A stretch of 64,000 nucleotides of DNA. Source: an uncultured Sterolibacterium sp. GTDB lineage: Bacteria; Pseudomonadota; Gammaproteobacteria; Burkholderiales; Rhodocyclaceae. Both the position numbers and the translations under genes were made by a program. Shown here piece after piece: positions 2 to 22,459 of this stretch (positions are counted from its first letter, which is position 1; every line of letters begins with the position of its first letter). Under the pieces are notes generated by a model that searched no databases, had not been told where the DNA came from, and saw only the letters and a list, made by a program, of their open reading frames with translations. Location of the stretch: NCBI GenBank assembly GCA_903930535.1, contig CAIYYX010000063.1, forward strand, positions 1-64,000, given 5' to 3'.

Positions 2-820
2 CTGACGACCGAGCAGGTAGCGGCACTGGAGACGGCGGATCTGGCGGCGATGAAGACCAGCCAGATCGCGGCACTGACGACGGCGCAGATTGCCAAGGGA
101 CTGTCCACGGAGCAGATTGCTGCGCTGACCACAGCGCAAGTTGCCAATGGCTTGATCACGGCCCAGGTTGCCGTGCTCACCACGGTGCAGATCAATCAGG
201 GGCTCTCCACGGCGCAGATTGCGGCGCTGAGTGTGACCAATGTGGCAGCGCTCACTACGGCGCAGATCAATCAGGGACTGAGCACCGACCAGATCGTTGC
301 ACTGACCACGGCGCAGGTTGCCGCATTGACTACGACGCAGATCGCCAAGGGACTGACCACGGATCAGGTGGCGGCAATGGAGACGGCGGATATTGCCGCC
401 TTCAAGACCAGCCAGGTTGTCGCGTTGACCACGGCTGGCGTGGCCGCGCTCACCACGAGCCAAGTCGCTCAGGGCCTGACCACTTCGCAAGTCGCAGCGC
501 TCACCACGGCGCAGATCAATCAGGGTCTGACCACCGATCAGATCGCCGCACTGACAACGACGCAGATCAATCAGGGTTTGACCACGGCGCAGATTGTCGC
601 GCTGACTACGGACGATGTGGCGGCGCTGACCACGACCCAGGTCAACCAGGGTTTGAGTACTACGCAAATCGTTGCCTTGACCACGACCCAGGTTTCCGCA
701 GGCTTGACCACGACGCAGATCAACCAGGCGCTGACCTCAGATCAGGTGTGTGCGCTGACGACGGATCAAGTTGCGGCGCTGACGACCCCCCAGCATGATT
801 CGCTGACTACAGAAAATCTC
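2..820 (+). repeat. Tandem coding repeat, alternating 24- and 27-bp units
   Basis: Within the adhesin-like gene the DNA repeats with a 24/27-bp period (encoding ALTTxQIA and GLTTxQIN units). Variants include ALETAD, AFKTSQ and ALTSDQ. The regular Leu-Thr-Thr spacing suggests a solenoid or coiled rod, and the near-identical DNA units make copy number likely to vary between strains. Confidence 0.85.
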
Positions 821-1687
821 CAATACCTGGGACTCGGCACACCGCTCGTTCTCGATTTGAGCGGAGCCGGAATTCAGACCCGGAGCATTGCCGCCGGCAC
901 GAAGTTCGATCTGTTCGCGACCGGGCAGGCGATCAATACCGGTTGGGTGACGGGCAGCACTGGTTTGCTGGTGATGGACAGAAACAATGACGGCGAGATC
1001 AACAACGGCGCCGAACTCTTCGGAGAAGCCACGCTGCTGTCCAACGGCGAAAAAGCCGCCAACGGTTACATTGCACTGACTGCGATGGACGCCAGCGGCG
1101 ATGGTTTGATCACCAACTCGGATAAGGGATGGTCGAATCTGAAGGTCTGGGTCGATAGCAATAGTGATGGCGTCAGTCAGGCGGGCGAACTCAAGACGCT
1201 TGATGATCTCGGTATCACCCAACTGAGTCTTGCTGCCACGGCATCGACTGAGACAAATAACGGCAATGTCGTGGGCCTGGTTTCCAGCTTCCAGATGAGT
1301 GACGGTTCCACGCATGCGATGGCCGACGTCTGGTTTGTTGCCGACAAGTACGCGCCAGTTGCCACAGCAACGGCAGCCCCGGCGCTCGCCGCGACAGGTG
1401 CCTTGTCCTCGAGCGTGGGTGGAATGGTTCAGGCCATGGGTGCTTTCAATGCGGCGCAAACGCCAAACGCTTCGACGACCACGCTAGCGGCCGTCACTGC
1501 GGCAACGCCAGATGTGGCGACGACCGTGGGCGGCGGGATTGTAAATGCGCTCAATGCGCTGAATCAGTTCGATCCGAACGGTAAGCTTGTGGCAGCGACC
1601 CTCCAGAGCGTGCCGGCAGTGCCTGCACTGACGCCCGCGACGCTGCCGAATCCCGCGAATAACGAAATACTGGCAAACGGCAAGTAG
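2..1687 (+). CDS. Repeat-rich calcium-binding RTX-like secreted protein, 5' truncated by window edge
   Basis: The frame is open from base 2 without a stop, so the start lies outside the window; an ATG at 50 is internal. The first ~270 visible residues are a tandem array of 8- and 9-residue units of the form A-A-L-T-T-x-Q-(I/V) alternating with N-Q-G-L-T-T-x-Q-(I/V). After about residue 275 the protein changes to a glycine/aspartate-rich domain with EF-hand-like loops (DRNNDGEINNGAEL, DASGDGLI, DSNSDGVSQAGEL), typical of large type I-secreted RTX adhesins. The last ~120 residues are Ala/Thr-rich and low in complexity. I infer an exported, calcium-binding surface or adhesin protein. No RTX nonapeptides or secretion partners are visible here. 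The repeat family itself is not one I can name. Confidence 0.8.
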   Translation: MTTEQVAALETADLAAMKTSQIAALTTAQIAKGLSTEQIAALTTAQVANGLITAQVAVLTTVQINQGLSTAQIAALSVTNVAALTTAQINQGLSTDQIVALTTAQVAALTTTQIAKGLTTDQVAAMETADIAAFKTSQVVALTTAGVAALTTSQVAQGLTTSQVAALTTAQINQGLTTDQIAALTTTQINQGLTTAQIVALTTDDVAALTTTQVNQGLSTTQIVALTTTQVSAGLTTTQINQALTSDQVCALTTDQVAALTTPQHDSLTTENLQYLGLGTPLVLDLSGAGIQTRSIAAGTKFDLFATGQAINTGWVTGSTGLLVMDRNNDGEINNGAELFGEATLLSNGEKAANGYIALTAMDASGDGLITNSDKGWSNLKVWVDSNSDGVSQAGELKTLDDLGITQLSLAATASTETNNGNVVGLVSSFQMSDGSTHAMADVWFVADKYAPVATATAAPALAATGALSSSVGGMVQAMGAFNAAQTPNASTTTLAAVTAATPDVATTVGGGIVNALNALNQFDPNGKLVAATLQSVPAVPALTPATLPNPANNEILANGK

Positions 1688-3084: not shown

Positions 3085-3831
3085 ATGCGGCTAGACGGCA
3101 AGACAGCAGTGGTGACAGGGGCGGCTTCCGGCATCGGGCGGGCGGTCGCCGAGGTGCTCGGAGCGGCGGGTGCGCACGTGGTGCTCGGCGATATCGCCGA
3201 GGAGAACGGCGCAGCAGTCGCAAAGGCGATACAGGAGCGCGGCCAGGGGGCGGATTTCTTCCGCCTCGACGTCACCGATCTCGACTCGGTGGCCAGCTTC
3301 GCCAACAAGGCCTACGCGGCGCGCGGTCACGTCGATATCGTGGCCAATGTCGCCGGCTGGGGCATGATCCAGCCCTTCGTCGAGAACTCGCCGGAATTCT
3401 GGCGCAAGGTGATCGATCTCAACCTGATGGGCCCCGTGATGGTGACCCGGGCCTTCGTCGACAAGATGATGGAGAAGGGTGCCGGCAAGATCGTCACCGT
3501 CGCCAGCGATGCGGGCCGCGTCGGCAGCCTCGGCGAGACCGTGTATTCCGGTGCAAAGGGCGGCGCCATCGCCTTCACCAAGGGCCTGGCGCGCGAGATG
3601 GCGCGCTACAACATCAACGTCAATTGCGTCTGCCCAGGCCCGACCGATACGCCACTGCTCGCGGCCGTGCCGGAGAAGCACCGCGAAGCCTTCGCCCGCG
3701 CGACGCCTATGAAGCGCCTGGCAAAGCCATCGGAAATCGCCGATGCCGTGCTCTTCTTCGCCAGCGATCGCTCGAGCTTCGTCACCGGCCAGGTATTGAG
3801 CGTCAGCGGCGGCCTGGCCATGGCCGGATAA
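3085..3831 (+). CDS. SDR-family 3-hydroxyacyl-CoA-type dehydrogenase (BadH-like)
   Basis: A 248-residue classical short-chain dehydrogenase with the N-terminal dinucleotide motif TGAASGIG (residues 11-18), an NVAG-type motif and the catalytic YxxxK as YSGAK near residue 155. The start ATG at 3085 has CTGGAG upstream; the same open frame runs far upstream without a supported start. Position after an acyl-CoA dehydrogenase and before a crotonase suggests oxidation of a 2- or 3-hydroxyacyl-CoA. In alicyclic pathways this is the step of BadH (2-hydroxycyclohexanecarboxyl-CoA dehydrogenase). The assignment is by family and context only. Confidence 0.9.
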   Translation: MRLDGKTAVVTGAASGIGRAVAEVLGAAGAHVVLGDIAEENGAAVAKAIQERGQGADFFRLDVTDLDSVASFANKAYAARGHVDIVANVAGWGMIQPFVENSPEFWRKVIDLNLMGPVMVTRAFVDKMMEKGAGKIVTVASDAGRVGSLGETVYSGAKGGAIAFTKGLAREMARYNINVNCVCPGPTDTPLLAAVPEKHREAFARATPMKRLAKPSEIADAVLFFASDRSSFVTGQVLSVSGGLAMAG

Positions 3832-3858
3832 AGAATTTCTTACAATCAGGAGAATCGC

Positions 3859-4677
3859 ATGTACACACTCAAAGCGGCAGACTGGCGCCCCCAGCATTTC
3901 AAGTGGGAAGTGAAAAACCGCGTCGGCACCATCACCCTCAACCGGCCGGACCGCAAGAATCCGCTGACCTTCGAGAGCTACGCGGAACTGCGCGACACCT
4001 TCCACAAACTGCAGTACGCATCGGACGTGCGCACCGTGGTGTTTACCGGAGAGGGCGGAAATTTCTGCTCCGGCGGCGACGTGCATGAAATCATCGGCCC
4101 GCTGACCAAGATGGACATGACCGGGTTGCTCGCCTTCACGCGCATGACCGGCAATCTGATCAAGGAAATGCGTACCTGTCCGCAGCCCATCATCTCGGCC
4201 ATTGACGGCATCTGCGTCGGCGCCGGAGCCATCATCGCCATGGCCAGCGACATGCGCTACGCCACCCCCGCGGCAAAGACCGGCTTCCTCTTCGTCAAAG
4301 TCGGCCTGGCCGGCTGCGACATGGGCGCATGCAGCATCCTGCCGCGCATCATCGGCCAGGGCCGTGCCTCCGAACTGCTGTACACCGGCCGCATGATGAC
4401 CGCCGATGAAGGCCAGGCCTGGGGCTATTTCAATGCCATCGTGGCGCAGGACAAGCTGATGGAAACGGCGCAGAACATGGCGCAGTCACTGGCTGATGGT
4501 CCCGCTTTTGCGCACTCCGTAACCAAGAAGTGCTTGCACCAGGAGTGGAACCAGACCATAGACCAGGCTCTCGAAACCGAAGCCGAGGCTCAGGCCATCT
4601 GCATGCAGACCAAGGATTTCGAGCGCGCCTACCACGCCTTCGTCAACAAAACGAAACCCAACTTCGAGGGAAATTGA
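3859..4677 (+). CDS. Atypical crotonase-family protein lacking both hydratase glutamates
   Basis: A 272-residue enoyl-CoA hydratase/isomerase superfamily protein with the CoA/oxyanion features (FCSGGD near residues 69-74; GICVGAGA near 117-124). By motif alignment the two catalytic Glu of canonical hydratases are replaced by Ile125 and Phe145. An Asp (Asp154 in GCDMGAC) sits where crotonases with hydrolase, C-C lyase or related activities carry acidic residues. It is therefore probably not a simple hydratase; a BadI-like ring hydrolase or another CoA-ester chemistry is possible. AGGAG precedes the start. It follows the SDR by 27 bases, and the TetR gene begins one base after its stop. Confidence 0.88.
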
Positions 4678-4678
4678 A

Positions 4679-5386
4679 ATGGCGTCACCCGGACATGTCG
4701 ATAGTCTGGTGACGGACAGCAGACTCATAGAAGAGCGCCGGGGGCAGATCCTGCGCGCAGCGGTCAAGCTGTTTTCGCAGGAGGGCTACTACACCACGAC
4801 AATTGCCCAGATCGCTCGCGAAGCAGGGGTGAGCATAGGCCTCATCTACCAGTACTTCGGCGACAAGGATGACATCCTTTTCCTCTCGCTGAAGATGGTT
4901 CTGGAAACCTACGAGCGCGAAATTCCGCTGCGCCTCGAAGGCGTCAAGCATCCGGTGGATCGCCTTTGCACGGCAATCTGGGCCTATTGCGCCATCGTCG
5001 ACCGGCTGCGCGAAGCGACAGTGCTCGCCTACCGTTCGACCAACTCGCTGCGCGCCGACCGCCGAAGCCTGATCAAGGATGAGGAAATCAGAAGCAACCG
5101 CCTGCTTGAGGGTTGCCTGCGCGAGTGCATCGACGGTGGTTATATGCGCGCGGTGAACGAGTACCTGCTGGTTTATCAGTACGTGATGTTTTGCCATGCC
5201 TGGGCACTCAAGTACTGGGCATTTCAGGGCAAGCTGTCGCCTGCAGAGTATGTCTCGGAAGGGGTAAAAATCCTGGTCGAGCCCTTTCTGACGAGCAAGG
5301 GCAAGGCTGCGCTGGCGACGATGCGTAAGAATACCGGCAACTTCAAACACGACAAGAAGCGCGCCAGCCGCGCCAAGGCAAAATGA
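4679..5386 (+). CDS. TetR-family transcriptional regulator
   Basis: A 235-residue TetR/AcrR repressor: an N-terminal helix-turn-helix (about residues 22-65, with the typical GVSIGLIYQYFGDKDDI segment) and a C-terminal ligand-binding helical domain, ending in a Lys/Arg/Ala-rich tail. It is embedded within the operon it probably controls. The start lies one base after the crotonase stop and its ATG-containing stop overlaps the next gene (ATGA), so it is translated with the enzymes. Two TGAATGA-N4-TCATTCA palindromes upstream are its likely operators, giving autoregulation. An acyl-CoA of the pathway is the expected inducer by analogy with related regulators. Confidence 0.93.
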   Translation: MASPGHVDSLVTDSRLIEERRGQILRAAVKLFSQEGYYTTTIAQIAREAGVSIGLIYQYFGDKDDILFLSLKMVLETYEREIPLRLEGVKHPVDRLCTAIWAYCAIVDRLREATVLAYRSTNSLRADRRSLIKDEEIRSNRLLEGCLRECIDGGYMRAVNEYLLVYQYVMFCHAWALKYWAFQGKLSPAEYVSEGVKILVEPFLTSKGKAALATMRKNTGNFKHDKKRASRAKAK

Positions 5387-7968: not shown

Positions 7969-9108
7969 ATGAGCAGCGGCTTGTTTGACCAATTCAAATC
8001 GTGGTACGAAAATCGCCACGATTACGCGCGTTCCTGGAAGGAGCGCACCGGCGGCCAGGTCGTCGCGACGATGTGCACCTACACGCCGGAGGAGGTACTG
8101 ATCGCGGCGGGCATGCTGCCGGTCCGTGTTCTCGGCGCGCACGAGCCGCAGAACGTTTCCGAGCCACATATCTTCGGCATGTTCTGCCCGTTCTGCCGCG
8201 ACTCGCTGTCGCAAGGCCTGCTCGGCCGCTACGACTACTGCGAGGGGGTGACGTTGACCCAGTCATGCATCCAGTACCGTCAGACCTTCTCCTCCTGGCG
8301 CCAGCATGTGCCGACGGTGAAGTGGGACTACTACCTGCCCATGCCCAACGAGGTGCAGTCGCGCCACGCCCGCACCATGCATTACGGCGAGGTGAAGAAG
8401 TTCAGGAGCTTCATGGAAGGGGTCATCGGCAAACCGATCACCGATCTCGATCTGAAGCGCGGCAATGATGTGGTGAATGAAAACCGCCGCCTGCTGCGGG
8501 AACTGTTCGAATACCGCAAGGAGACCAATCCGCGCGTCAACGGCGTCGAGGCGCTGTACGCCTCCATCACCGCGCAGTTCGTGGACAAGGAGGATCACAA
8601 CCGGGAATTGAAACGCGTGCTGGCCGAACTGCCCAATCGCAAGCAGGACAGGCCGGAAGGCGTGCGCTTCATGACCATAGGCTCGGAGAACGACGACATT
8701 TCCTTCATGGCCATGGTCGAGTCGGTCGGCTCGACCATCGTCATCGACGACCAGTGCTCGGGCACCCGCTATTTCTGGAACGAGGCGCGTCCCGGCGACG
8801 ACCAGATCGCCATGATCGCCGACCGCTATTGCGACCGTCCCGCCTGTCCGACCAAGGACTATCCGGCGCACACCCGCTTCGATCACGTGCTCAAGCTGGC
8901 AAAGGACTTCAACGCCCGCGCCGCCATCTTCCTGCAGCAGAAGTTCTGCGACCCGCACGAGGGCGATTATCCTGACCCGAAAAAGCATCTGGAGAGCAAT
9001 GGTATTCCAACGCTGTTCCTGGAGTTCGACATCACCAATCCGCTGGGGCCGTTCCGCATTCGCATCGAGGCTTTCCTGGAAACCATGAGCGAAGAGGAGT
9101 TATTCTGA
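7969..9108 (+). CDS. Benzoyl-CoA reductase, bzd-type subunit N-like (2-hydroxyacyl-CoA dehydratase D family)
   Basis: A 379-residue protein of the FldB/FldC-HgdB-BcrC family, with the length and motif layout of BzdN/BcrC. Conserved cysteines at Cys73 and Cys76 (MFCPFCRD) and Cys100 (QSC) probably bind an iron-sulfur cluster and CoA-ester substrate with the partner subunit; YFWNE and ACPTKD motifs follow. AGGAGG lies ahead of the ATG. The stop overlaps the next gene by one base. In known class I reductases this subunit pairs with BzdO and is fed electrons by the ATPase subunits BzdP/BzdQ, which are not in this window. It could act on a different aromatic or alicyclic acyl-CoA. Confidence 0.88.
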
Positions 9109-10415
9109 TGGCAAAATATCCTACCGAGCCGCTGAAGTTCTGGAAGAAGGCGAAACAACTCAGGGATCAGTATTACTTCAACTACGCCAGCGCCCACGAA
9201 AAGGGCGGCATCCGCTGGGGTGCTGCCGGCTGGTCGTTCGACGCCATCCCCACGGCCTTCGGCGACGACGTTTATCCCCTGACGGGAGAGCCCTACGCCG
9301 CGTCCATTGCCCATGACCGCAAGTTCGCCAAGGAATGCCTGGAGAAGGCAGAGTCCATGGGCTTTGCCCGCGATCTGTGCGCCTATATGCGCATCTACTG
9401 GGGCAGCATGCATCTCAACAAATATCTGATGGGCGGGGCGTTTCCGAAACCGGATTTCAATTATCAGACCCAGATCTGCTGCAGCCACTCCAAGTGGTAT
9501 CAGCATGCTTCGAGCTTCGAGAACATTCCGGATTTCTACGTCGATGTTAATGTCGGCGCCTACAAGGACATGGACGAAGGCCGGCTGAACTACGTGGTGG
9601 CGCAGCTCCACGACTCGATCGCCTTCGTCGAGAAGACGACAGGCAGGAAGTGCGACGACGAACTCCTGTTCCGCGCCATCAAGAACGAGATGCGCGCCAC
9701 TTCCCTCTGGGCCGAGATCTGCACCCTCAACAAGGCTGTGCCGGCACCGCTCGACGAGAAGTCGATGTATTCCCTGTATGTGCTGGCCGTCCTGCACAAG
9801 TCTTCGCAGTGGTGCGCAGACTTCTACCAGGAGGTGCTGGACGAGGTCAAGGACAGGGTCGCCCGGGGTATTGCCGCCGTCGGCAACGAGCGCTGCCGCA
9901 TCATGTCAGACACCCAACCGCCCTGGGCCTTCCTGAAGATCTTCCGCTATCTGGAGGAGTTTGGCGCGGTATCCATCGGTTCGCTCTATACCTTCGGCCT
10001 CGAAGGAACCTGGGAGACCCTGCCGGACGGCACCTGGGCGCCGCGCAGGACGCCGATGCAGCTGGGCATAGAATTCACCTCGCGTGACCAGGCCTTGAGG
10101 CTTTACGCCGACTGGAACCTGTCCAAACCCTTGTGGCAGCACTTCTTCGACCCGAACCTGAAAACCGAGATGATGAAGACCATCGTCCGCGATTGGCAGG
10201 TCGATGGGGTGATGATTCACATGAACCGCGGCTGCGAAGGTCTGTCCCTCGGCATCATGGAGAATCGCCTGGGCCTTGCCGCAGCCGGTATCCCGGTGAT
10301 GACTTACGAGGGCAATATGGGCGATGAGCGCGAGTTTGACGAAGGGCGCGCGCAAAACAGGGTCGATTCCTTCATGGAAACGCTCAACCTGAAGCGCGAT
10401 TTCGTCTATGCCTGA
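9108..10415 (+). CDS. Benzoyl-CoA reductase, bzd-type subunit O-like
   Basis: A 435-residue 2-hydroxyacyl-CoA dehydratase-family subunit matching BzdO/BcrB in size and order after the N-like gene. Candidate cluster ligands include Cys91 and the Cys124-Cys125 pair (TQICCSHS), plus a C-terminal NRGCEGLS motif. The two genes overlap by one base, so they form one translational unit, presumably a heterodimer that holds the catalytic iron-sulfur clusters and reduces a CoA-thioester-activated ring. No BzdP/BzdQ or ferredoxin gene follows; a terminator-like hairpin comes directly after the stop. ATP-dependent activation would have to come from elsewhere in the genome. Confidence 0.88.
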
Positions 10416-10475: not shown

Positions 10476-11555
10476 TTATTTGTTGCGCTTGACGTAGGGA
10501 CCGAGATCCTTGACCACCGCCTCGACGAAGGAATGGTCCACCACCTTCCCGATGTTCACGCTGCCCTCGATCAGCCCCTGCTCCCTGTAGAACTGCAAAT
10601 CCTTCACGAGGCTTGCCTCATTGACCTTGCCGTCGGGATTGGCGCCGTGGGCGACGATGCTCCGGTAGACGGCGGGGTCCTTGATCGGCGTGTATTCGTT
10701 CAGGATGGCAATGATTTCCTCCGCATTCGGACCGGCGAGCTTCGCGCCAAGCAATGCGTCGTTGTAATCCCTTACGCCCCGGATATAGGCGCGCATGAAC
10801 TTTCTTGCCGTGTCGGGGCTGTCCTTGATGAAGATGGCGCCATAAAGCACCACGGCGACTTGTTGGTTCGGATAAAACTCGTCGTTCCCTGCGAAGCGGA
10901 CCGCGGCGCCGAGGTTTACGACGGTTGTGACGTGGGGCTCGGTGGTGATGCTGGCATCCACCGCCTTGTTCTGCAGGGCCATCACGTGCTGCGGGAAGCC
11001 CAGGCTCACCACCGTCACATCGCTGTATGAAAGGCCTCCCTTCTTCAGGGCTTCATTGAGCATCACGGCAGGGCTGGTGCCTGCGGCACTGACGGCCACC
11101 TTCAGCCCCTTCAGGTCCTTGAAGCTCTTAAACCTGCCGCTGTCTATCAGGTCCTTGCGCACCAGGAGCGGGTTATAGCCGAACCCTGGCGGGCTCGATG
11201 CCTTGTCCGCGACAATCTTCACGTCGATTCCACGCGCGATGGCGTTGTAGAGTCCCGCCGACGGCGCTCCGGCCCCCACATCCAGTTGCCCGACGCCGAG
11301 CGGGGCAACCATTTTTGCGGCGGAATTAAAGGCGATGAACTCGACGTTAATCCCTTCCTGCTTGAAGTAGCCCTTCTTCTCGGCGATGAAAAAGCCGGCA
11401 TCGCTGGAGGTGTTGGCGGTGCCGACCTTGACCGTGGCGGCGGTCTGCGCATGAGCATCGGCGAGTCCCAAGCCAGTGGCGAGAGTGACGAGCGCAGCGC
11501 AAATCAGGAAGCGGTCCACCGCCAGTAACCGATACGTGCGAAAAATCATTTGCAT
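10476..11555 (-). CDS. ABC transporter substrate-binding protein, SsuA/TauA/NMT1-like
   Basis: A 359-residue periplasmic binding protein with an N-terminal signal peptide (about residues 1-36, cleavage after AHA) and the SsuA/TauA/ThiY two-lobe fold motifs (VGTANTSSDAGFF, LKGLKVAVSAAGTSP). GAGG precedes the start. It is the last gene of the minus-strand UbiD/EutA-like operon, but no permease or ATPase of this ABC class is adjacent, so its membrane partners must be elsewhere or it may serve as a sensor. An aromatic or sulfonate-like carboxylate ligand is plausible; the sequence does not tell. Confidence 0.88.
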   Translation of the reverse strand: MQMIFRTYRLLAVDRFLICAALVTLATGLGLADAHAQTAATVKVGTANTSSDAGFFIAEKKGYFKQEGINVEFIAFNSAAKMVAPLGVGQLDVGAGAPSAGLYNAIARGIDVKIVADKASSPPGFGYNPLLVRKDLIDSGRFKSFKDLKGLKVAVSAAGTSPAVMLNEALKKGGLSYSDVTVVSLGFPQHVMALQNKAVDASITTEPHVTTVVNLGAAVRFAGNDEFYPNQQVAVVLYGAIFIKDSPDTARKFMRAYIRGVRDYNDALLGAKLAGPNAEEIIAILNEYTPIKDPAVYRSIVAHGANPDGKVNEASLVKDLQFYREQGLIEGSVNIGKVVDHSFVEAVVKDLGPYVKRNK

Positions 11556-11609
11556 ATGCGACCTCGTCGGAAGATTGGATTGTCTAAGCTGTCGGTAACA
11601 CCTGCCTGT

Positions 11610-13205
11610 TCAGCCTGCGCTGCCGGGCTGCTTGCCGGGCTCAAAACCGCCGACCTCGTGATAGACGGTCTTGTTCTCCTCCTCGAAGGCGCGCACCGTC
11701 GGAATCTGCCCGGGCAAGCCGAGTTTTTCCCAGCGCGAGGCAACCTTGTCGTAGGTGGCCTTGGAGAGCGCAGTCCGCTTGGAGAACACCGGCAGGTGGC
11801 GGTGTTCCTTGCAGGCATTGATCAGCGCCTTGGAGCCGTATGGCCGCTTTTCCGGCGGATTCTGCGTCGGGTCCAGCCAGGTGCTCCAGGTATTGCGCAG
11901 GATGTCGATGTCGTCGATCGGATTGCAGCGGCTCGCCATCGCCCAGATCACCTGGTCGGTGTCGGTGGGATCGATGTCCTCGTCGACAGCGATGATCAGC
12001 TTGGTGTAATAAGCCCCCCCCGGAACCTGGGCCGCCAATGCCAGCACCTGGGCTGCGTGACCGGCGTAGCGCTGCTCGAGGCTGATCACCGTCATGCCGA
12101 AGCCGCCGGCAGCGGCCGGGTGGGCATAGACGCCATGGATGCCGGGAATGCCGAGCTTGTCCAGGTCATCCCAAATTTTCGCCGAGCGGATGATGGAGAA
12201 AAACCCGCTCTGCTCGCAGGAGGGGTAGTCGGCCATCAGGGCATTGGTCAGGATGGGTTTGGAACGGTAATGGACGGCGGTCACCTCGACCAGCGGGCAG
12301 CCGGCTTCGGGCCTGCCGTAGTAGCCGGGAAACTCGCCGAACGGGCCTTCGATCTTGACCGAATCCGGCCGGATGATGCCTTCGATGACCAGTTCGGCAT
12401 TGGCCGGCAGGAGCAAATCCGTGGTCGTGCCGCGCACCACGGGAATGGCCTGGCCCTTGATGCCGCCGGCAAATTCGTACTCGGAAATATTCTTCGGAAA
12501 GGTTTGCGAACCCACCATCATGAACAGCGGATCGATACCCCAGGCCGCGGCCACGGGGATGGACTCACCCTTCTGCCAGGCGCGGGTGATGTGCAGGCGG
12601 GCATCCTTGCCCGGCGACAGATACAGTCCCACATGCTTCTTCCCCTGCTGCATCATCCGGTAGGTGCCGATGTTCAGATAGCCCGTATCCGGGTCGCGGG
12701 TAATCACTGCGTCCCCCGTGCCAGCGTAGCGTCCGCCGTCCAGAGGCCAGTGCCTGGGGATGGGCAAGAGATCGAGGTTGATCTGGTCTCCTGTCAGCGT
12801 ATTCTCATACACAGGCGCCTCGCTGCGCGAGACCTCCCGCGGCGGAATGCGCTGCTTGAGCTTGTCCTTCGCCCGGCGTATCAGTTCCACCGTCGGCGTA
12901 TCCACAGGCTCCTCCAGGGTCAGGGCAATGCGCTTGAGACTGGGCCCCAGGATGTTCCACAGCAGTCTTGCGCCGATCGGGCTTTTTTCGAATCCGGCCG
13001 CCTGCTCGAACAGCACCGCGGGCGAAGGTTTCTGCTTCGCCAGGAGATAAGCGATCGCGCTCATTTCCTCGTCCCGGTCCACGGGCTGCTTCACCTGCAC
13101 CAGCTCGTCCATTTCCTCGACGCGCAAGAGCCACTCGCGCAGATCCTGTATCGGCTCGCCCGCCGCGAGTTTTCCTGCCTTTATGCCGCGCTTTTTCATA
13201 TCCAT
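11610..13205 (-). CDS. UbiD-family decarboxylase (UbiD-1)
   Basis: A 531-residue UbiD-family enzyme; these enzymes (de)carboxylate aromatic or alpha,beta-unsaturated acids using prenylated FMN. It retains the Arg of GTYRMM near residue 175 and the paired acidic residues in IEGPFGEF, the E-x4-E part of the E-R-E catalytic triad. The start at 13205 is chosen because GGGGAG lies 5 bases upstream; an upstream in-frame ATG at 13265 has none. It is fourth in the operon ubiD, eutA-like, cupin, ubiD, binding protein. No UbiX prFMN synthase gene is in the window, so the cofactor comes from elsewhere. Confidence 0.93.
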   Translation of the reverse strand: MDMKKRGIKAGKLAAGEPIQDLREWLLRVEEMDELVQVKQPVDRDEEMSAIAYLLAKQKPSPAVLFEQAAGFEKSPIGARLLWNILGPSLKRIALTLEEPVDTPTVELIRRAKDKLKQRIPPREVSRSEAPVYENTLTGDQINLDLLPIPRHWPLDGGRYAGTGDAVITRDPDTGYLNIGTYRMMQQGKKHVGLYLSPGKDARLHITRAWQKGESIPVAAAWGIDPLFMMVGSQTFPKNISEYEFAGGIKGQAIPVVRGTTTDLLLPANAELVIEGIIRPDSVKIEGPFGEFPGYYGRPEAGCPLVEVTAVHYRSKPILTNALMADYPSCEQSGFFSIIRSAKIWDDLDKLGIPGIHGVYAHPAAAGGFGMTVISLEQRYAGHAAQVLALAAQVPGGAYYTKLIIAVDEDIDPTDTDQVIWAMASRCNPIDDIDILRNTWSTWLDPTQNPPEKRPYGSKALINACKEHRHLPVFSKRTALSKATYDKVASRWEKLGLPGQIPTVRAFEEENKTVYHEVGGFEPGKQPGSAG

Positions 13206-13321
13206 GAACACTCCCCAAGTAAAGAATTCGCCAATGGGCTGGATGAGAGCCCCGTGCATTTCCAATCGTAGTTCAGTCTACACCTTGAACTGAGGCCAGC
13301 AGGTCGCGCATTAACCCGACT

Positions 13322-13368
13322 GTCGGCCTGCACCCGTCCGGGTGTCTCCAGCGAAAGACAGACCTGCA
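13322..13368 (-). repeat. Composite palindromic element, degenerate copy
   Basis: On the minus strand this 47-bp block shares with 63797-63843 the inner hairpin ACACCC-GGAC-GGGTGC, the TTTC-N2-TGGA bulge and the AGGCCGAC arm, while its GTAG-head arm has decayed. It lies between the cupin and UbiD-1 genes. The 20-base core GCACCCGTCCGGGTGTCTCC (13330-13349, plus strand) is identical in three places in the window. Confidence 0.7.
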
Positions 13369-13390
13369 CAACGGACCTGACAAGCCGCAG

Positions 13391-14479
13391 TCAGGCACGC
13401 GGTATATTGAACTGACCCATTTTCACCTCGACACCGTTTTTTCCCGTCGCTTCCTCATAAAGTTGCGCGATACGCGGCGACTGGTCTTCATACTCTATTT
13501 GCGCACCGCCTTCTTTCACGCTCGTCGATACGCCGCCAAACAGCGATGCGCGCTTGCTCTCGGTGAAGGGGTAACGGGAACTGCCGAAAGCGGTTGCCAG
13601 ATAGCGCGCCGGCATCGATCCGGTATTGAAATGCTGGTGGAACATCTGGTCAGGCGGCGCGAAAACAGTGCCATGCTTCCAGTCGACGCGCACATAATCC
13701 TGATCGCCTTCAAACCACAACAGAGAGTAGCCTTGTCCAGTCACGCACATGACGTGAAAGTCTGCGGCGTGGCGGTGGCCCTTCTTGTACGTTCCGACCG
13801 GCATCTCGGAAATATGGGCGTGCATCGTTCCGTCGGCCAGGACGAACATGATGTTTTTTCCGCCGGCGCCGCGCTCTGCCCAGTCCTTCAATTCGATCGC
13901 GCCCAGGTCTGGCACGAAGTTGGTCTCCCACAGATGGTTGCCGGGGCGAACCGGAATGAAGTCTCCTTCGCCGCTGAAGTATTTGTCGCCGCCCATGCGT
14001 TCGCCGAAATTCCAGGGATTGGCGAAGATGAACTCGGTGTTGTGGAACATGTTCAGCACAGCAGGCAAATTCGTCGTGCACACGATTCTCGCGGCATCAT
14101 GACCACTGCCGTTGAAGTGGCGATACTCGGCATTCAGGGGGATGGCAAACAGGCTGCCCGGACCCCATTCAAAGCTGTGCCGGCGCCCGTCGGTGGAAGC
14201 GATCGAGGTGCTGCCGCGTCCGGCCAGCACATAAACCACCTCCTCGTAAAGATGGCGCTGCGGTACCGTCGCCTTGCCCGGTCCCAGTTCCAGCAGGAAC
14301 ATGGAAATGAAATCGCCGCGTCCCTTCAGATGCACGGCCGCGCCGCTGACACCGTAGCGAGCCCAGGGCTTTGGTTCTACGGCGAACAAATCAACGCCAA
14401 AGCCTTCGATGACGGGAAGGCCTTCCTCTTTCACCCACTCCAGATAGGGGTCTCGCATCAAGTTGGGTGTCGTGTTCAT
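13391..14479 (-). CDS. Bicupin protein (gentisate dioxygenase-like fold)
   Basis: A 362-residue two-domain cupin. The N-terminal cupin carries PQRHLYEEVVYVL and the C-terminal cupin GHRHAADFHVM plus FHQHF, so at least one full His/Glu metal site appears possible. Relatives are often labelled ethanolamine ammonia-lyase-activating proteins in databases (from memory), which fits the EutA-like gene directly upstream, although ring-cleavage gentisate dioxygenases share this fold. GGAG precedes the ATG by 6 bases. It sits between the EutA-like gene and UbiD-1 in one operon. An oxygenase role seems unlikely beside anaerobic-type enzymes. A metal-dependent isomerase/hydrolase or helper protein is possible. 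Confidence 0.85.
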   Translation of the reverse strand: MNTTPNLMRDPYLEWVKEEGLPVIEGFGVDLFAVEPKPWARYGVSGAAVHLKGRGDFISMFLLELGPGKATVPQRHLYEEVVYVLAGRGSTSIASTDGRRHSFEWGPGSLFAIPLNAEYRHFNGSGHDAARIVCTTNLPAVLNMFHNTEFIFANPWNFGERMGGDKYFSGEGDFIPVRPGNHLWETNFVPDLGAIELKDWAERGAGGKNIMFVLADGTMHAHISEMPVGTYKKGHRHAADFHVMCVTGQGYSLLWFEGDQDYVRVDWKHGTVFAPPDQMFHQHFNTGSMPARYLATAFGSSRYPFTESKRASLFGGVSTSVKEGGAQIEYEDQSPRIAQLYEEATGKNGVEVKMGQFNIPRA

Positions 14480-14510
14480 CTAGTTCTCCATTCGCAAGTA
14501 GTCAATGGTC

Positions 14511-16079
14511 TTAGCGGCCCGCCGGAAACAGCAGCGATTTGATGACGAGGGGTACCACATTGGCCGGCTCCACCATTTTGCCGATATCGACATAATCCAG
14601 TTCCTGCAATTTAACGCCGTCGAGCGAAATCACCGGCCGCGCCACATTCAGTTCATCGGCAAGAATATGCCCGAGCGTCTTCCCGACATCGCCGTCCACC
14701 ATAAGAATAATCGGCAGGCTGCTGGCGTCGTCGAGCGCAATGGCGATTCCCTCCGCCAGGCTGCGCAAGCGAAAATAATGCGGCTCGCCATGCCAGGGAA
14801 TGGCCAGAGCGAGCGCTTGAGCCGGGCTGAGATCGGCGCGCTGCAACGCTGCGTGCACGGCTTGCGCAACTTCAGCCGAAGAAAAGTCGCTATTCGACGC
14901 CAGTGCCGGGAATACCACCGGAACGTTGTGCAAAGGCAGTGCGGCATGGCGGGAAATATGTATGGTCTTGCCGCTGACCTGCACCGTAAATTGCGAGGCG
15001 CCGATCACCGTCGCACGGATGCCATTGCCTGGATCGGTCAGGGTTGCCCCGATGCGCCCGCTTTTGAAAGCGTTCGCGATCTTGTCCGCGAGCGGCTTGG
15101 CAATATCGCCGTAAGTGCGCGCCTCGCGGCCGAACAGATATTCGGAAACGCCGCCGGAGAAGGTGACCAGATGCGGGCGCTCGCTCATGTCGAGCGGCTC
15201 GGTGAGCAGCAGGGTCTGCGCCAATCGCGTCGGCTGCTCGCCGCGGATGCAGGAAATAACGATCTCGGCGAGGGTTTCTATGATGCGCTCCATGTCTTCT
15301 GCTGCCGGCTTTTCCCCCAGAAGCATTGTCAGGCCGAGACTGTCTGCCGTCCGCTGTGCCGACTCGTCAAGCCGGATCAGCCTGTGCTCGGCATCTTGAA
15401 CCAGCAGGCGGCCGCCGACCGCAACCGCGCAGGTAGCTCTCACTTCTCCATTTTGCAGCAGTGCGAATTTCGTCGTGCCGCCGCCCAGATCAACGTTCAG
15501 AACCGTGCGATGAGTGAGCCTGGAATGCTCAGCCGCACCTGAACCGCGTGCAGCGAGGGTGCATTCCAGATGATGGCCGGCCGAGGCGCAGACGAATTTG
15601 CCGGATTCGGCGGCAAAAAGTTGGGCGATCGCCTGCGCATTGATGCGCTTGATCGCCTCTCCCGTCAGAATCACCGCACCGCTGTCGATCGCCTCGCGGC
15701 TAAGATCCGCTGCCTGATAGGCAGCGTCGATAAATTCCTTGAGCTGGACGGCATCGATCGTATTGTCCGGCAGGAATGGCGTGAGCAATATCGGCGACTT
15801 CCACAGTATCTTGCGCTCAACCACGAGATAACTGCTGGACAAGAGTTGCGCCTTGCGCTGCAAATGCACGCGGGCAAACATCAGGTGCGAGGTCGAACTG
15901 CCGATGTCGATGCCGACGGTGGTCAATTCGACGTTGTCGCTTTTCCAGAAAAAATCTGCGAGAGCGCTCTTGTCGGCCTCGGAGTAATCGTGGAAATGGG
16001 TCCCCCCGCCGTCATGAAAATGGCAGGGAGAACCATTATGAAACAGTGGGTGACCGCCGTAGGAAAAGTAATTTCTCAT
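14511..16079 (-). CDS. EutA-like ATPase (ethanolamine ammonia-lyase reactivase family) with His-rich N-terminus
   Basis: A 522-residue ASKHA-fold ATPase that follows EutA along its whole length: phosphate-1 motif GIDIGSSTS (about residues 56-64), phosphate-2 NVDLGGGTT (about 205), a TFSGGVSEY adenosine motif and a C-terminal DYVDIGKM...PLVIKSLLFP end. Known EutA exchanges damaged cobalamin on EutBC, but no eutBC is present here. The first ~45 residues form an unusual extension with HPLFH, CHFHD and THFHD, suggesting metal binding. The ATG at 16079 is preferred; a GTG at 16091 is also in frame and neither has a strong ribosome site. The operon partners are UbiD enzymes and a cupin, suggesting a re-purposed reactivase. 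Confidence 0.85.
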   Translation of the reverse strand: MRNYFSYGGHPLFHNGSPCHFHDGGGTHFHDYSEADKSALADFFWKSDNVELTTVGIDIGSSTSHLMFARVHLQRKAQLLSSSYLVVERKILWKSPILLTPFLPDNTIDAVQLKEFIDAAYQAADLSREAIDSGAVILTGEAIKRINAQAIAQLFAAESGKFVCASAGHHLECTLAARGSGAAEHSRLTHRTVLNVDLGGGTTKFALLQNGEVRATCAVAVGGRLLVQDAEHRLIRLDESAQRTADSLGLTMLLGEKPAAEDMERIIETLAEIVISCIRGEQPTRLAQTLLLTEPLDMSERPHLVTFSGGVSEYLFGREARTYGDIAKPLADKIANAFKSGRIGATLTDPGNGIRATVIGASQFTVQVSGKTIHISRHAALPLHNVPVVFPALASNSDFSSAEVAQAVHAALQRADLSPAQALALAIPWHGEPHYFRLRSLAEGIAIALDDASSLPIILMVDGDVGKTLGHILADELNVARPVISLDGVKLQELDYVDIGKMVEPANVVPLVIKSLLFPAGR

Positions 16080-16104
16080 GCTGATGCCCACGGCTATAGC
16101 GCGC

Positions 16105-16128
16105 GGCCCGGCGAGAGAACGCCGGGCC
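16105..16128 (-). promoter_or_regulatory. Intercistronic hairpin between UbiD-2 and EutA-like genes
   Basis: Perfect 9-bp arms GGCCCGGCG / CGCCGGGCC (16105-16113, 16120-16128) with a 6-base loop start 8 bases after the UbiD-2 stop. There is no T-run on the minus strand, so partial termination, processing or 3'-end protection that lowers expression of the downstream genes is more likely than full termination. Confidence 0.6.
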
Positions 16129-16135
16129 GACCGGC

Positions 16136-17653
16136 CTATTTCAGCAGATAGCCGAATTTCTCCAGCGTCTTCTTCGCCAGTTCGGGACTCGGCATATTGA
16201 CCTTCGGGAACTTGTCGCGCCAGGAGAAGGGGCGGCAGGCGTCAATGATGGCGCGGGAGTTGGTGTTATCACCCCTGTCCTTTTGCTCCGGAGGTATGCG
16301 TGGGTCGAGCGGCGTGCTCCAGGTGTTGGTGATGATGTCGATGGAGGTGGCTGGATCGGAGCGGGTCACCAGCGCCCACATCAGGTCCTCGAGGTTGGAG
16401 ACGTCGATGTCGTCATCGACCACGACCACGTACTTGCCGGCATAGGCGCCGGCGTGGCACATGGCCGCCACATGGCCGGCCTGCTTGGCATGGCCGCCGT
16501 AGCGTTGCTTGATAGAAACACCGAGCAGCAGCCGCGAGCCGCCCACCTCGTGAGCCCACACCGCGGTCACGTCGGGAACGCCTGCCGCCGTGATGTTCTT
16601 GCGAATCAGGGCCGAGCGGGTGACGGCGCGGTAGCGCGCCTGTTCCTCGGGGGGGCGCTGCGGCGGGCAGCCGAGAATGATGGGGTTGTTGCGGTGGTAT
16701 ATCGCCTTGATGTCGAGTACCGGCTCTTCGCGGATGTCGCTGCCGTAGTAGCCAGTCCACTCGCCGAACGGCCCCTCCAGCTTGCGCTTGCCCGGTTGCA
16801 CGAAACCCTCGATGACCATCTCGGCATTTGCCGGAATGGGTAGCCCCGTGACCTTGCCCTTGATTACCTTGACCGCCTTGCCGCGCAGGCCGCCGGCGAT
16901 ATCCAGTTCGCAGACGCCATAGGGCATTTCGGTGCAGGCGAGAAGAAACTGCAGCGGATCGCCGCCGATGACGATGACCACAGGCATCGGCTCATTGCGT
17001 GCTTCGTACTTGTCGCGATGGATTCGCCCGTGCTTGCCGGGAGACATGTAGAAGCCGAGCGTATTCTTGTCGTGGATCATGACGCGATAGGTGCCGACGT
17101 TGATCCATTTTTCCTCGGGGTCAATGGTGATGTTATAGCTGCCCGTGCCGACATAACGCCCGCCGTCGCCTTCGTGCCAGAGGGGGACGGGAAACTTTGT
17201 GATGTCGATGTCGTCTCCGGTGATGACGTTCTCCATCACCGGGCCGGTCTCGACGAACTCGTGGGGGATGGGCTTCAGCTCCCGCATGTAGTTCTCCAGG
17301 AAGGCTTCGGAGAGCTGGAGCTTGGAGTAATGCAGGGGAAAACCCAGGGTGAAGTTCTTGCGCTTGCCGCCGAAGAAATTCGTAAGCACGCGGTAGCCCT
17401 TGGCGCAGCCTGGGATTTCGTCAAAAATCACGCAGGGCGCATTCTCGTCGTGCTGGACGAGCTCGGCAGCCATGCCGATTTCCTCCTGCCAGGTAGCGCC
17501 TTTCACCACCCGGATCTCTCCCAGTTTTTCGGCTTCGAGAATCCACTCGCGAAGGTCTTCGTAGGGGATCTTGAAGCCCAGGGCTTCGCGCTGCTTCTTG
17601 GCTTCCTCGGCGGAAAGCTGCATCGTTGCCATATTGCTGTCTCTCGCGGTCAT
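16136..17653 (-). CDS. UbiD-family decarboxylase (UbiD-2)
   Basis: A 505-residue UbiD-family enzyme and first gene of the minus-strand operon. It has the conserved Arg (GTYRVMIHD), the metal/prFMN-loop MSPGKHGRIH and the acidic pair of LEGPFGEW, so the E-R-E triad is complete. GGGAG lies 8 bases before the ATG at 17653, preferred over an ATG at 17677 with no site. Its promoter region carries an IclR-type operator touching the -10. It resembles UbiD-1 and differs clearly from UbiD-3. Aromatic acid decarboxylation, or carboxylation of an unactivated ring, are both family activities; direction and substrate are unknown. Confidence 0.93.
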   Translation of the reverse strand: MTARDSNMATMQLSAEEAKKQREALGFKIPYEDLREWILEAEKLGEIRVVKGATWQEEIGMAAELVQHDENAPCVIFDEIPGCAKGYRVLTNFFGGKRKNFTLGFPLHYSKLQLSEAFLENYMRELKPIPHEFVETGPVMENVITGDDIDITKFPVPLWHEGDGGRYVGTGSYNITIDPEEKWINVGTYRVMIHDKNTLGFYMSPGKHGRIHRDKYEARNEPMPVVIVIGGDPLQFLLACTEMPYGVCELDIAGGLRGKAVKVIKGKVTGLPIPANAEMVIEGFVQPGKRKLEGPFGEWTGYYGSDIREEPVLDIKAIYHRNNPIILGCPPQRPPEEQARYRAVTRSALIRKNITAAGVPDVTAVWAHEVGGSRLLLGVSIKQRYGGHAKQAGHVAAMCHAGAYAGKYVVVVDDDIDVSNLEDLMWALVTRSDPATSIDIITNTWSTPLDPRIPPEQKDRGDNTNSRAIIDACRPFSWRDKFPKVNMPSPELAKKTLEKFGYLLK

Positions 17654-17720
17654 TTCATGTTCTCCCTGTTCTTGCATCTGGGAACGCTACTCACGTGCCG
17701 GCTGTTTCTTTAGGGCTTGG

Positions 17721-17924: not shown

Positions 17925-18710
17925 TCACGGGTGAGCCGTATCCTCGATGTAAGGTTCCAGGTTGTCGATCTCAGCCCTGATCAGCGACGCGAGTTCTTTT
18001 TTCCGTTCCTTGGTCATCCTGCTCGATATCGCGCCAATGCTGATGGCCAGCACCGGCTCTCCTGAGCGGGAGCGGATCGGCAGGCCGAGCGATGTGCTGC
18101 CGGGCGTGACTTGGGCGTCGTTCAAGGCGAAGCCAAGTTCCCGGCTTCGCTTGAGCAGCTTCATCACGGCGGGCACAGTCAGGTTGTTGTATGCGCCCAG
18201 GCGCAAGGCATTGGCAGAGACGATGGCCAGTTGGGTTTCGCTGGGGAGTTTCATGAGCAGCGCCAAACCGCCGGCACCGACACCCAGAGGCCGGCGCGTT
18301 CCGACGTCGAGGGTAAAGGTTTTGATCGGGAATTTGCCTTCCACGCGATCTATGCAGACCGAGTCAGCGCCGCTTCGTATGGTCAGAAAAACGGTGTCGC
18401 CCGATATCTCGGCGAGTCTCAGCAGCGACGGATGGCAGATATCCCTCAGATTGAAGCTCGAGGCTGCCGCGAGGCCAAGTTCGAAGATCAGATGGCCGAG
18501 AAAGTAACGGCGAGTCTCGGGATCCTGCTTGACCAAACCCTCGCTGGCCAGGCACTTCAGGATGCGGTGCGCTGTCGGACGCTCGAGCTTCGCCTGCTTC
18601 GAGATATCCACCAGGCGTTGCCCGACGCTGTTGCGGCTGGCGATGAGGCGCAGAACCTGTGCGGCCCGCTCTATGCTCTGTGTGCCACCGCCGGCTTTTT
18701 CCTTTTCCAT
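17925..18710 (-). CDS. IclR-family transcriptional regulator
   Basis: A 261-residue IclR regulator: an N-terminal winged helix-turn-helix (about residues 10-75, LERPTAHRILKCLASEGLV) and a C-terminal effector-binding domain (SGADSVCIDRVEGK, RRPLGVGAGGLALL). AAGGGAA precedes the start. It lies between the two UbiD arms, in the same direction as UbiD-2 and divergent from UbiD-3. Matching palindromes at both UbiD promoters make it the likely shared controller. Its own promoter (TTGACA, 16 bp, TATAGT) overlaps a different palindrome. IclR proteins often sense aromatic acids or pathway metabolites, so the UbiD substrate or product is a reasonable effector. Confidence 0.94.
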   Translation of the reverse strand: MEKEKAGGGTQSIERAAQVLRLIASRNSVGQRLVDISKQAKLERPTAHRILKCLASEGLVKQDPETRRYFLGHLIFELGLAAASSFNLRDICHPSLLRLAEISGDTVFLTIRSGADSVCIDRVEGKFPIKTFTLDVGTRRPLGVGAGGLALLMKLPSETQLAIVSANALRLGAYNNLTVPAVMKLLKRSRELGFALNDAQVTPGSTSLGLPIRSRSGEPVLAISIGAISSRMTKERKKELASLIRAEIDNLEPYIEDTAHP

Positions 18711-18890: not shown

Positions 18891-20471
18891 ATGAACGATA
18901 TTCCGAACAAGGCGGTTGGCAAGGCAGGGGTCAAGGATGTCACGAGTCTGCGCTCGACGTTGGAATGGTTCCGCAGCAAGGGCTATCTGGTCGAAACCGA
19001 CAATGAGGTCAATCCTCACCTCGAGATCACCGGCTTGCAGAAGATTTTCGATGGCAGCCTGCCGATGCTGTTCAACAACGTCAAGGGCATGCCCTACGCT
19101 CGCGCCATCACCAACCTGTTCGGCGACATCCGCGTCGTCGAGGACATGTTCGACTGGGAGAACTCGCTGGATCGGGTAAAGAAGGTGGCGCGCGCCATCG
19201 ATCATCCGCTCAAGCCGGTGATCATTGAGCAGAAAGATGCGCCGGTTCAGGAAGAAGTCATCACCGAGAATATCGATGTCAATAAGTGGATCACGGCCAT
19301 CAGCCACACGCCGATGGATACCGAACTGACCATCGGTTCGGGCATTTCCTGCGTTGTCGGCCCGTATTTTGACGGTGGCAGCCACATCGGTTACAACCGC
19401 ATGAACTTCCGCTGGGGCGACGTCGGCACCTTCCAGATCTCTCCCGGATCCCATATGTGGCAGGTGATGACCGAGCACTACAAGGATGAGCAGCCGATTC
19501 CCCTGACCATGTGCTTCGGTGTTCCGCCGTCTTGCACTTATGTCGCCGGTTCCGGCTTCGACTATGCAATTCTGCCCAAGGGTTGCGATGAGATCGGCAT
19601 CGCCGGCGCCATCCAGGGCTCGCCGGTGCGTCTCGTCAAATGCCGGACCATCGACGCCTACACCTTGGCCGATGCCGAGTATGTGCTGGAAGGCTACCTT
19701 CATCCGCGCGACAAGCGCTACGAAACTGCAGAGTCGGAAGCGGCCGACACGCAAGGACGCTTCCATTTCCATCCTGAATGGTCAGGCTACATGGGCAAGG
19801 CCTACAAGGCGCCGACTTTCCACGTCACCGCGATCACCATGCGCAAGCGGGAAGGAAAGCCGATCATTTTCCCGCTGGGCGTGCATACCTCGGACGACGC
19901 CAACATCGACACCTCGGTGCGCGAGTCGGCGATCTACTCCCTGTGCGAGCGCCTGCAGCCGGGCATCGTGCAGAACGTTCACATCCCCTACTGCATGACC
20001 GACTGGGGCGGTTGCATCATCCAGGTGAGAAAGCGCAACAAGATCGAGGAAGGCTGGCAGCGCAACTTCCTCGGCGCGATCCTCTCCTGTTCGCAGGGCA
20101 TGCGTCTGGCGATCGCGGTGTCTGAAGACGTCGATATCTACTCGATGGACGACATCATGTGGTGCCTGACGACGCGCGTGAACCCGAAGACGGATATTCT
20201 CAACCCGATTCCCGGCGGCCGCGGTCAGACCTTCATGCCGGCAGAACGGATGACCTCGGGCGACAAGCAGTGGACGGCTTCCAACACCGAGTTCGAAGGC
20301 GGCATGGGCATCGATGCAACGGTGCCTTATGGCTACGAGAGCGACTTCCACCGCCCGGTTTATGGGGTGGATCTGGTCAAGCCGGAAAACTTCTTCAACG
20401 ACAAGGATATCGAGAAGATGCGTTCGCGCATGGCCGGTTGGGTGCTGTCACTGGCGCGGACCGGACGGTAA
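18891..20471 (+). CDS. Divergent UbiD-family decarboxylase (UbiD-3)
   Basis: A 526-residue UbiD-family protein preceded by GGAG 8 bases before the ATG. The fold motifs are present (GYNRMNFRWGD with the likely conserved Arg; ISPGSH; AEYVLEGYL; HPEWSGYMG). However, the E-x4-E pair that completes the E-R-E triad in UbiD-1 and UbiD-2 is changed: the first Glu position reads Gln (TQGRF), and the spacing to the second Glu is lengthened, with about 13 extra residues in this loop. From memory, phthaloyl-CoA decarboxylases also depart from the canonical triad, so a CoA-ester substrate is possible. No phthalate CoA-transferase gene is in the window. The cation exchanger gene follows 33 bases later. Confidence 0.92.
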   Translation: MNDIPNKAVGKAGVKDVTSLRSTLEWFRSKGYLVETDNEVNPHLEITGLQKIFDGSLPMLFNNVKGMPYARAITNLFGDIRVVEDMFDWENSLDRVKKVARAIDHPLKPVIIEQKDAPVQEEVITENIDVNKWITAISHTPMDTELTIGSGISCVVGPYFDGGSHIGYNRMNFRWGDVGTFQISPGSHMWQVMTEHYKDEQPIPLTMCFGVPPSCTYVAGSGFDYAILPKGCDEIGIAGAIQGSPVRLVKCRTIDAYTLADAEYVLEGYLHPRDKRYETAESEAADTQGRFHFHPEWSGYMGKAYKAPTFHVTAITMRKREGKPIIFPLGVHTSDDANIDTSVRESAIYSLCERLQPGIVQNVHIPYCMTDWGGCIIQVRKRNKIEEGWQRNFLGAILSCSQGMRLAIAVSEDVDIYSMDDIMWCLTTRVNPKTDILNPIPGGRGQTFMPAERMTSGDKQWTASNTEFEGGMGIDATVPYGYESDFHRPVYGVDLVKPENFFNDKDIEKMRSRMAGWVLSLARTGR

Positions 20472-21746: not shown

Positions 21747-21752
21747 TCTGTG

Positions 21753-22058
21753 GTGGAAAAGACAAAGCCGCATTACCCTCTGGAATTGGTCAAGCGCTTG
21801 ATCGTGGATGAGGAGCGCGACCCGTTTACCCAGAGTGCCAAGAACGGCGCGGCGGAAATGGGTTTGGATGCGGGGGAGTTGCGAGGAATAATGACAGGCC
21901 TTGTTATGCAGGATTTTTACAAAAGCATGACTACGCACGAAAGTAGCCGGGTATGGCAAGACGTGTACCGACCTGTTACCCGCATGGGTGCGGCTTACGT
22001 CAAGGTGACGATCAACCCGGCGGAGAATCTGATCGTAGTGTCTTTCAAGGGATTGTGA
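21753..22058 (+). CDS. mqsR: Type II toxin MqsR (mRNA interferase)
   Basis: A 101-residue MqsR homologue; the family cleaves mRNA at GC-rich trinucleotides and is held inactive by MqsA. The segment DFYKSMTTHESSRVWQDVYR is nearly the same as in the E. coli toxin, and the protein ends in the typical VSFK strand. There is no ATG: the GTG at 21753 gives a protein aligned with E. coli MqsR (98 residues), while a TTG at 21711 would add 14 unlikely residues and overlap the promoter. With transcription predicted to start at about 21753 the mRNA could be leaderless. The antitoxin starts 3 bases after the stop, toxin first as usual for this pair. Confidence 0.93.
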   Translation: MEKTKPHYPLELVKRLIVDEERDPFTQSAKNGAAEMGLDAGELRGIMTGLVMQDFYKSMTTHESSRVWQDVYRPVTRMGAAYVKVTINPAENLIVVSFKGL

Positions 22059-22060
22059 TT

Positions 22061-22459
22061 ATGAAAAAAATTGAATGCCCGGCCTGCGGCAGCAAGATGA
22101 CGCGGGCAATTCAGGATCTGCGTTACGTCTATAAAAGGCAGGCTCTCGTTGTGCCTGCGCTGGATGCGCTGGTCTGCGCTAGCTGCGGTGAGGCACTGTT
22201 TGCCACGCCGGCAGACGGCGCGCGTTACGATGCCGCCATCCGCGCCCATATCGCTGCTGTGAATCTCAACAGTGCGCCGGATTTGCGAGCAATTCGCAAA
22301 CGGCTGAAGCTAACCCAAGCGGAAGCAGGTCGTATATTTGGCGGCGGGGTCACAGCCTTTTCGCGCTATGAGCGTGGCGAAGTCAAGCCGCCCGTCGCAC
22401 TGGTGAAGTTATTTCAGGTACTCGACAGACACCCTGATCTGCTGGCCGAGTTGAAATAA
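22061..22459 (+). CDS. mqsA: Type II antitoxin MqsA
   Basis: A 132-residue antitoxin matching MqsA (131 residues in E. coli). The N-terminal zinc domain carries CPAC (residues 4-7) and CASC (near 40). The C-terminal XRE-type helix-turn-helix includes LKLTQAEAGRIFGGGVTAFSRYERGE. It binds MqsR through the zinc domain and represses the operon through the helix-turn-helix. The ATG at 22061 follows the toxin stop by 3 bases. A 26-base perfect palindrome terminates the unit just after the stop. Confidence 0.95.
   Translation: MKKIECPACGSKMTRAIQDLRYVYKRQALVVPALDALVCASCGEALFATPADGARYDAAIRAHIAAVNLNSAPDLRAIRKRLKLTQAEAGRIFGGGVTAFSRYERGEVKPPVALVKLFQVLDRHPDLLAELK

Follow-up and report, generated by a model that had tools for sequence, protein, structure and literature searches.

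What does a relative of EutA do among UbiD-type decarboxylases? EutA strips damaged cobalamin from ethanolamine ammonia-lyase in an ATP-requiring manner (PMC5821096). The DNA analysed here, a stretch of 64,000 nucleotides from an uncultured Sterolibacterium sp. (contig CAIYYX010000063.1, positions 1 to 64,000; hereafter the window), carries a EutA-like gene in a run of five genes that also encodes two UbiD-family decarboxylases and a protein of two cupin domains (bicupin). The relevant features of the window are the following.

7969..9108, plus strand: benzoyl-CoA reductase, bzd-type, subunit N (bzdN); TIGR03190, 759 bits, cut-off 454
9108..10415, plus strand: benzoyl-CoA reductase, bzd-type, subunit O (bzdO); TIGR03191, 819 bits, cut-off 449
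10476..11555, minus strand: NMT1/SsuA-type periplasmic binding protein, final gene of the run; PF09084 (NMT1), E 2.4e-26
11610..13265, minus strand: UbiD-family decarboxylase 2 (UbiD2), downstream of the bicupin; PF01977, E 8.8e-64
13391..14479, minus strand: bicupin, 362 aa; Cupin_2, E 2.3e-10
14511..16091, minus strand: EutA-like ATPase, 526 aa, ASKHA fold, GTG start; PF06277, E 1.1e-118
16136..17677, minus strand: UbiD-family decarboxylase 1 (UbiD1), directly upstream of the EutA-like gene; PF01977, E 5.6e-69
17925..18710, minus strand: IclR-family regulator, upstream of the operon; PF01614 and PF09339
18891..20471, plus strand: phthaloyl-CoA decarboxylase, third UbiD-family gene, divergent; 8pmk, 1127.8 bits, full length

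The gene order given by an earlier sequence-only reading (ubiD, eutA-like, bicupin, ubiD, binding protein) is borne out: all five genes are present and lie close together on the minus strand, and the earlier coordinates are right, with 17677 instead of 17653 as a possible start of UbiD1. The IclR-family protein may control the operon. Since phthaloyl-CoA decarboxylase, bzdN, bzdO and an acyl-CoA ligase, the last also found on the bzdN/bzdO side of the operon by the family scan, are nearby, the operon appears to lie within a region of anaerobic phthalate/benzoyl-CoA degradation. The 8pmk-like gene at 18891-20471 (+) makes the organism probably an anaerobic phthalate degrader. The nearest solved structure of both UbiD1 and UbiD2 is 7pda, a 'UbiD family decarboxylase' (E 4.8e-112 and 3.3e-75, respectively), and their scores against phthaloyl-CoA decarboxylase are much lower. 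Elsewhere in the window, genes of an MqsR toxin and an MqsA antitoxin (PF15723, PF15731) are located at 21750-22459 (+), and an ORF with six ALTTAQ repeats (PF20080) at 50-1687 (+).

The Pfam family PF06277 covers the whole EutA-like protein (profile positions 2-474 of 475), and structure matches identify its fold as ASKHA. Nevertheless, the protein fails all NCBIfam EutA equivalogs, scoring 322.8, 278.7, 226.9 and 215.8 bits against cut-offs of 598, 769, 952 and 799, respectively. A tree was built of 107 sequences, namely 94 EutA-like proteins and 13 true EutA from E. coli, Klebsiella, Listeria, Clostridioides, haloarchaea, relatives of the host and others. The 94 are split from the 13 with an SH-aLRT support of 100; some branches are long, yet this is the main split. 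The tree, suggested by the sequence-only reading as a check, thus gives the EutA-like proteins a clade of their own. Sterolibacterium, Oxalobacteraceae, Rhizobiales, Rhodospirillaceae, Chloroflexi and Pseudonocardia are among its named members. Within the family of the host, true EutA scores about 540 bits to Pfam and was found in four other sampled genomes, and the EutA-like clade (about 358-405 bits to Pfam) only in genus g1.

The genomic neighbourhoods differ too. Neither eutB nor eutC occurs near the EutA-like gene in any of the 94 loci, whereas among the 13 true EutA loci eutB is nearby in 9 and eutC in 8, three of the others having only about 1.5 kb of flank. The lack of eutBC that had been claimed for the window extends further: EutB has zero matches across the entire home assembly (G000; 92% complete, 289 contigs, 4.0 Mb). 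At the N-terminus, an HD...HxH motif is found in 73 of 91 EutA-like proteins and in none of the 13 true EutA, with 2.7 expected after shuffling. In the AF2 model (pLDDT 84.6) residues 1-33 fall below 50 and form a His-rich, disordered tail at the N-terminus. EutA-like and true EutA proteins have the nucleotide-site glycines and aspartates of the ASKHA fold in common. Clade-specific positions include S65, H173, K208, S366, D466 and G467, of which all except S65 are noted as standing in for true EutA residues; position 208, past the second phosphate motif, is Lys in the EutA-like clade and Asn in true EutA. Thus the protein is like EutA in full-length homology, ASKHA motifs and core length. Judging from the failed equivalog cut-offs, the separate clade, the EutBC genes that are never neighbouring, and the HD...HxH tail of most members, it is not EutA. 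Two further differences are the genome without EutB and the bicupin partner.

The bicupin gene is adjacent to the EutA-like gene and co-directional with it in 77 of 94 loci, with a median gap of 32 bp and some overlaps. The named loci are the best 80 matches to the query and share ancestry, so that the counts are not independent; the genome scan found at least 497 EutA-like relatives. Among 399 genomes from the order, the five with a bicupin are the same five that have the EutA-like gene, distributed over three families (Fisher 1.2e-11); a sixth has true EutA only and lacks the bicupin. A phylum-wide sample revealed the EutA-like clade or the bicupin only in the home genome, and the bicupin was absent from the five genomes of that sample whose EutA-family matches had scores outside those of the clade. 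The home genome itself has four full-length EutA-like genes, the window one and three more, and a bicupin of the same family is clustered with all four, some clusters being cut by contig ends. One of these clusters, L018, also carries a NicO-type permease, a binding protein and ABC transporter parts; its EutA-like paralogue (3446-5182, +) has His-rich stretches at both ends.

In 18 positive genomes, a bicupin lies within 3.5 kb of 50 of the 66 EutA-like genes, the copy numbers of the two are correlated (Spearman 0.84), and in 22 of 24 cases EutA class I is matched by a bicupin of class a. The distance matrices of the two proteins agree as well (Mantel r 0.52, p 0.001), the species tree contributing too; a within-genome cupin distance of 0 at L091 was disregarded, one bicupin having been assigned there to two EutA genes. 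At the level of genes and sequences, these data show that the EutA-like protein and the bicupin are linked and have been inherited and duplicated together. Many bicupins are orphans with no partner close by: only 54 of the 114 bicupins in the same 18 genomes, i.e. about half, lie within 3.5 kb of a EutA-like gene. A culturable host is available in Phyllobacterium zundukense, where a plasmid (L134, 10665-13467) carries a 'hypothetical protein' at the bicupin profile match followed by a gene annotated as EutA.

The C-terminal cupin domain of the bicupin holds a full 3-His site, H235, H237 and H281, kept in 88, 88 and 89 of 89 homologues, respectively; the N-terminal metal site is degenerate. The AF2 model (pLDDT 93.4) resembles, according to Foldseek, the oxalate decarboxylase and quercetinase bicupins (OxdC, E 5.6e-17), and the profile match to 3bu7 is weak (E 3.3e-6). 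Among curated families, none specific was matched above cut-off (AminoSalDhMabB, 31.9 bits, cut-off 650). A 3-His arrangement like that of the bicupin is known from gentisate 1,2-dioxygenase. Two cupin domains are common to the bicupin, OxdC, quercetinase and gentisate 1,2-dioxygenase, but it differs from known bicupin metalloenzymes by an identity of about 14%, a TM-score below 0.5, the degenerate N-terminal site, and its occurrence in a genome in which no heme-copper oxidase was detected. That genome, G594 (assembly completeness not given), has four EutA-like genes and eight bicupins, yields no match for a heme-copper oxidase, and carries desulfoferrodoxin and an ATPase that we take, from its motif, to be CooC-like. 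A strictly aerobic dioxygenase role of the bicupin is weakened by these features; because G594 has the module with no heme-copper oxidase match, the reaction is less likely to depend strictly on O2. In the Chloroflexi genome Centralia_MAG_115 (G598; L161, L162) some of 31 bicupin matches stand in tandem in one reading frame.

The pair is found in varied pathway surroundings. Three unrelated families of decarboxylase type occur near it: UbiD; a relative of 4,5-dihydroxyphthalate decarboxylase (solved structure 9jp7, E 1.1e-52), present within 5 kb in 25 of 94 loci; and class II aldolase-fold proteins weakly like 3,4-dihydroxyphthalate decarboxylase, present within 5 kb in 15 of 94. Other neighbours are Rieske oxygenases with a LigXa C-domain, Gfo/Idh dehydrogenases, LigB-type dioxygenases and TctABC transporters, and some EutA-like clusters contain genes of NicO-type Ni/Co permeases. 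The common theme of these contexts seems to be carboxylated, often aromatic, substrates. NadC (cluster c9) was considered as a pathway member and rejected: it is common only among related Rhizobiales that share their chromosomal surroundings (c60/c61, chromate transporter-like genes), so its presence was taken as synteny, not function.

Based on these comparisons, we propose that the bicupin has a dedicated helper in the EutA-like ATPase, either an ATP-driven reactivase or a chaperone that loads metal or cofactor, and that the pair serves several carboxylate or aromatic-acid pathways, a reading to which we give a little less than an even chance. The bicupin would be the enzyme and would act on a carboxylated, often aromatic, substrate through the 3-His metal centre in the C-terminal domain. 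The EutA-like protein would use ATP to replace a metal or cofactor that is damaged or missing and so keep the bicupin active, comparable to the action of EutA with cobalamin. The HD...HxH tail of most members could bind or deliver metal. The module may be plugged into differing carboxylate pathways, here into the anaerobic phthalate/benzoyl-CoA region, and the UbiD enzymes of the window would perform prFMN decarboxylations of their own. Metal-inserting NTPases of the HypB, UreG and CooC type have His-rich tails. The EutA-like protein is akin to them in its putative metal-binding tail, in presumed nucleotide hydrolysis and in a metal permease that is sometimes nearby, but they are P-loop proteins, whereas it has the ASKHA fold. 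Delivery of metal by the tail cannot be a universal step, because 18 of 91 members lack the motif, including sub-clades in which all bicupin ligands are kept; such sub-clades weaken a universal metal-tail mechanism.

It is also conceivable, though rather unlikely, that the EutA-like protein is not a repair factor at all, but the ATP-using subunit of the bicupin enzyme, responsible for instance for carboxylate activation by phosphorylation. Such activation is known from ASKHA enzymes of the hydantoinase/acetone carboxylase type, which depend on ATP. Linkage, co-duplication and short gaps suit a two-subunit enzyme no less than an enzyme with its helper; Lys 208, which replaces the Asn of true EutA, speaks for such a role, as does one orphan locus in which the bicupin follows two genes of cluster c35, presumably of HyuA/HyuB type. 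However, the nearest characterised family is a reactivase, and a fixed co-encoded complex cannot be general because about half of the bicupins lie away from a EutA-like gene.

The proposal of the sequence-only reading, that UbiD, a prFMN enzyme, has its chaperone or reactivase in the ATPase together with the cupin, appears improbable. The pairing with UbiD that it pointed out does recur beyond the home genome: the two genes are adjacent in 9 of 94 loci, with about three origins at 2.5 kb. The window clade, a deltaproteobacterium (L045) and a marine clade (L052, L053, L054, L057, L087) all have UbiD as the gene directly upstream of the EutA-like one. In the marine clade the EutA-like gene adjoins UbiD and NicO with no adjacent bicupin, the bicupins being elsewhere in the genome, which favours a UbiD client and counts against our reading of a bicupin helper. 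Several members of this clade have lost the third His of the tail motif. The gene order in the marine alphaproteobacterial locus L053 (9986-11518 and downstream; also L052, L054 and L057) comprises UbiD, the EutA-like gene, the NicO-type Ni/Co permease, a mono-cupin and a 4,5-dihydroxyphthalate decarboxylase-like gene.

As the conserved main partner, though, UbiD was rejected, its 9 of 94 adjacent loci standing against 77 for the bicupin, which is also the one that shares the same 5 of 399 genomes and has a matched copy number. The home genome has 34 UbiD-family genes, a large set for 4.0 Mb, vs. four EutA-like genes; in the loci read only 2 of the 34 are beside a EutA-like gene, and the window cluster is the only one that unites the two families, whereas a bicupin is near all four EutA-like genes. 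Elsewhere the pair is accompanied by other decarboxylase types. UbiD in general does not depend on the EutA-like protein, because UbiD-family proteins are present in 9 of 14 control genomes and the EutA-like clade is rare. The literature searched contains no ATPase helper for UbiD. Phthaloyl-CoA decarboxylase and other prFMN-dependent UbiD enzymes share the genomic region, with the window gene at 18891-20471 as a near-identical relative, and supply the pathway context. UbiD as a client seems to fail as a general rule, a role for it may be retained in one marine clade, and the UbiD decarboxylase beside the pair is probably a pathway neighbour only. What stands of the earlier idea is an ATPase of the EutA family without EutBC, in its own clade and with no description found; UbiD as the client is not supported.

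An ordinary EutA for ethanolamine ammonia-lyase or another B12 enzyme encoded elsewhere, in line with the same full-length Pfam family and common nucleotide-site residues, is hardly credible given the separate clade, eutB/C that are never adjacent, scores of 216-323 bits vs. equivalog cut-offs of 598-952, and the lack of any EutB match in the 92% complete assembly, for which action on a remote EutBC was rejected.

The literature searched, which misses most subscription journals, contains no description of a EutA-like/bicupin system; searches on EutA with UbiD, cupin or phthalate returned only ectoine genes named Eut, ethanolamine and unrelated papers. To our knowledge, no reactivase-type helper has been known for the cupin superfamily, so the EutA-like protein would be the first if it is a reactivase. 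We consider it possible, if short of probable, that the EutA-like proteins make up a separate ASKHA class of reactivases or metallochaperones serving a metal-dependent bicupin of (poly)carboxylate catabolism. If this is true, metal cupins join the B12 radical enzymes as clients of reactivases, and a metal-loading ATPase exists on the actin/Hsp70 fold. Many of the at least 497 relatives would carry the label 'ethanolamine ammonia-lyase reactivating factor EutA', although that enzyme is very probably not their target. In general, since a single Chloroflexi genome has as many as 31 copies of the bicupin, enzymes of an unrecognised class that act on aromatic or carboxylated compounds may be widespread.
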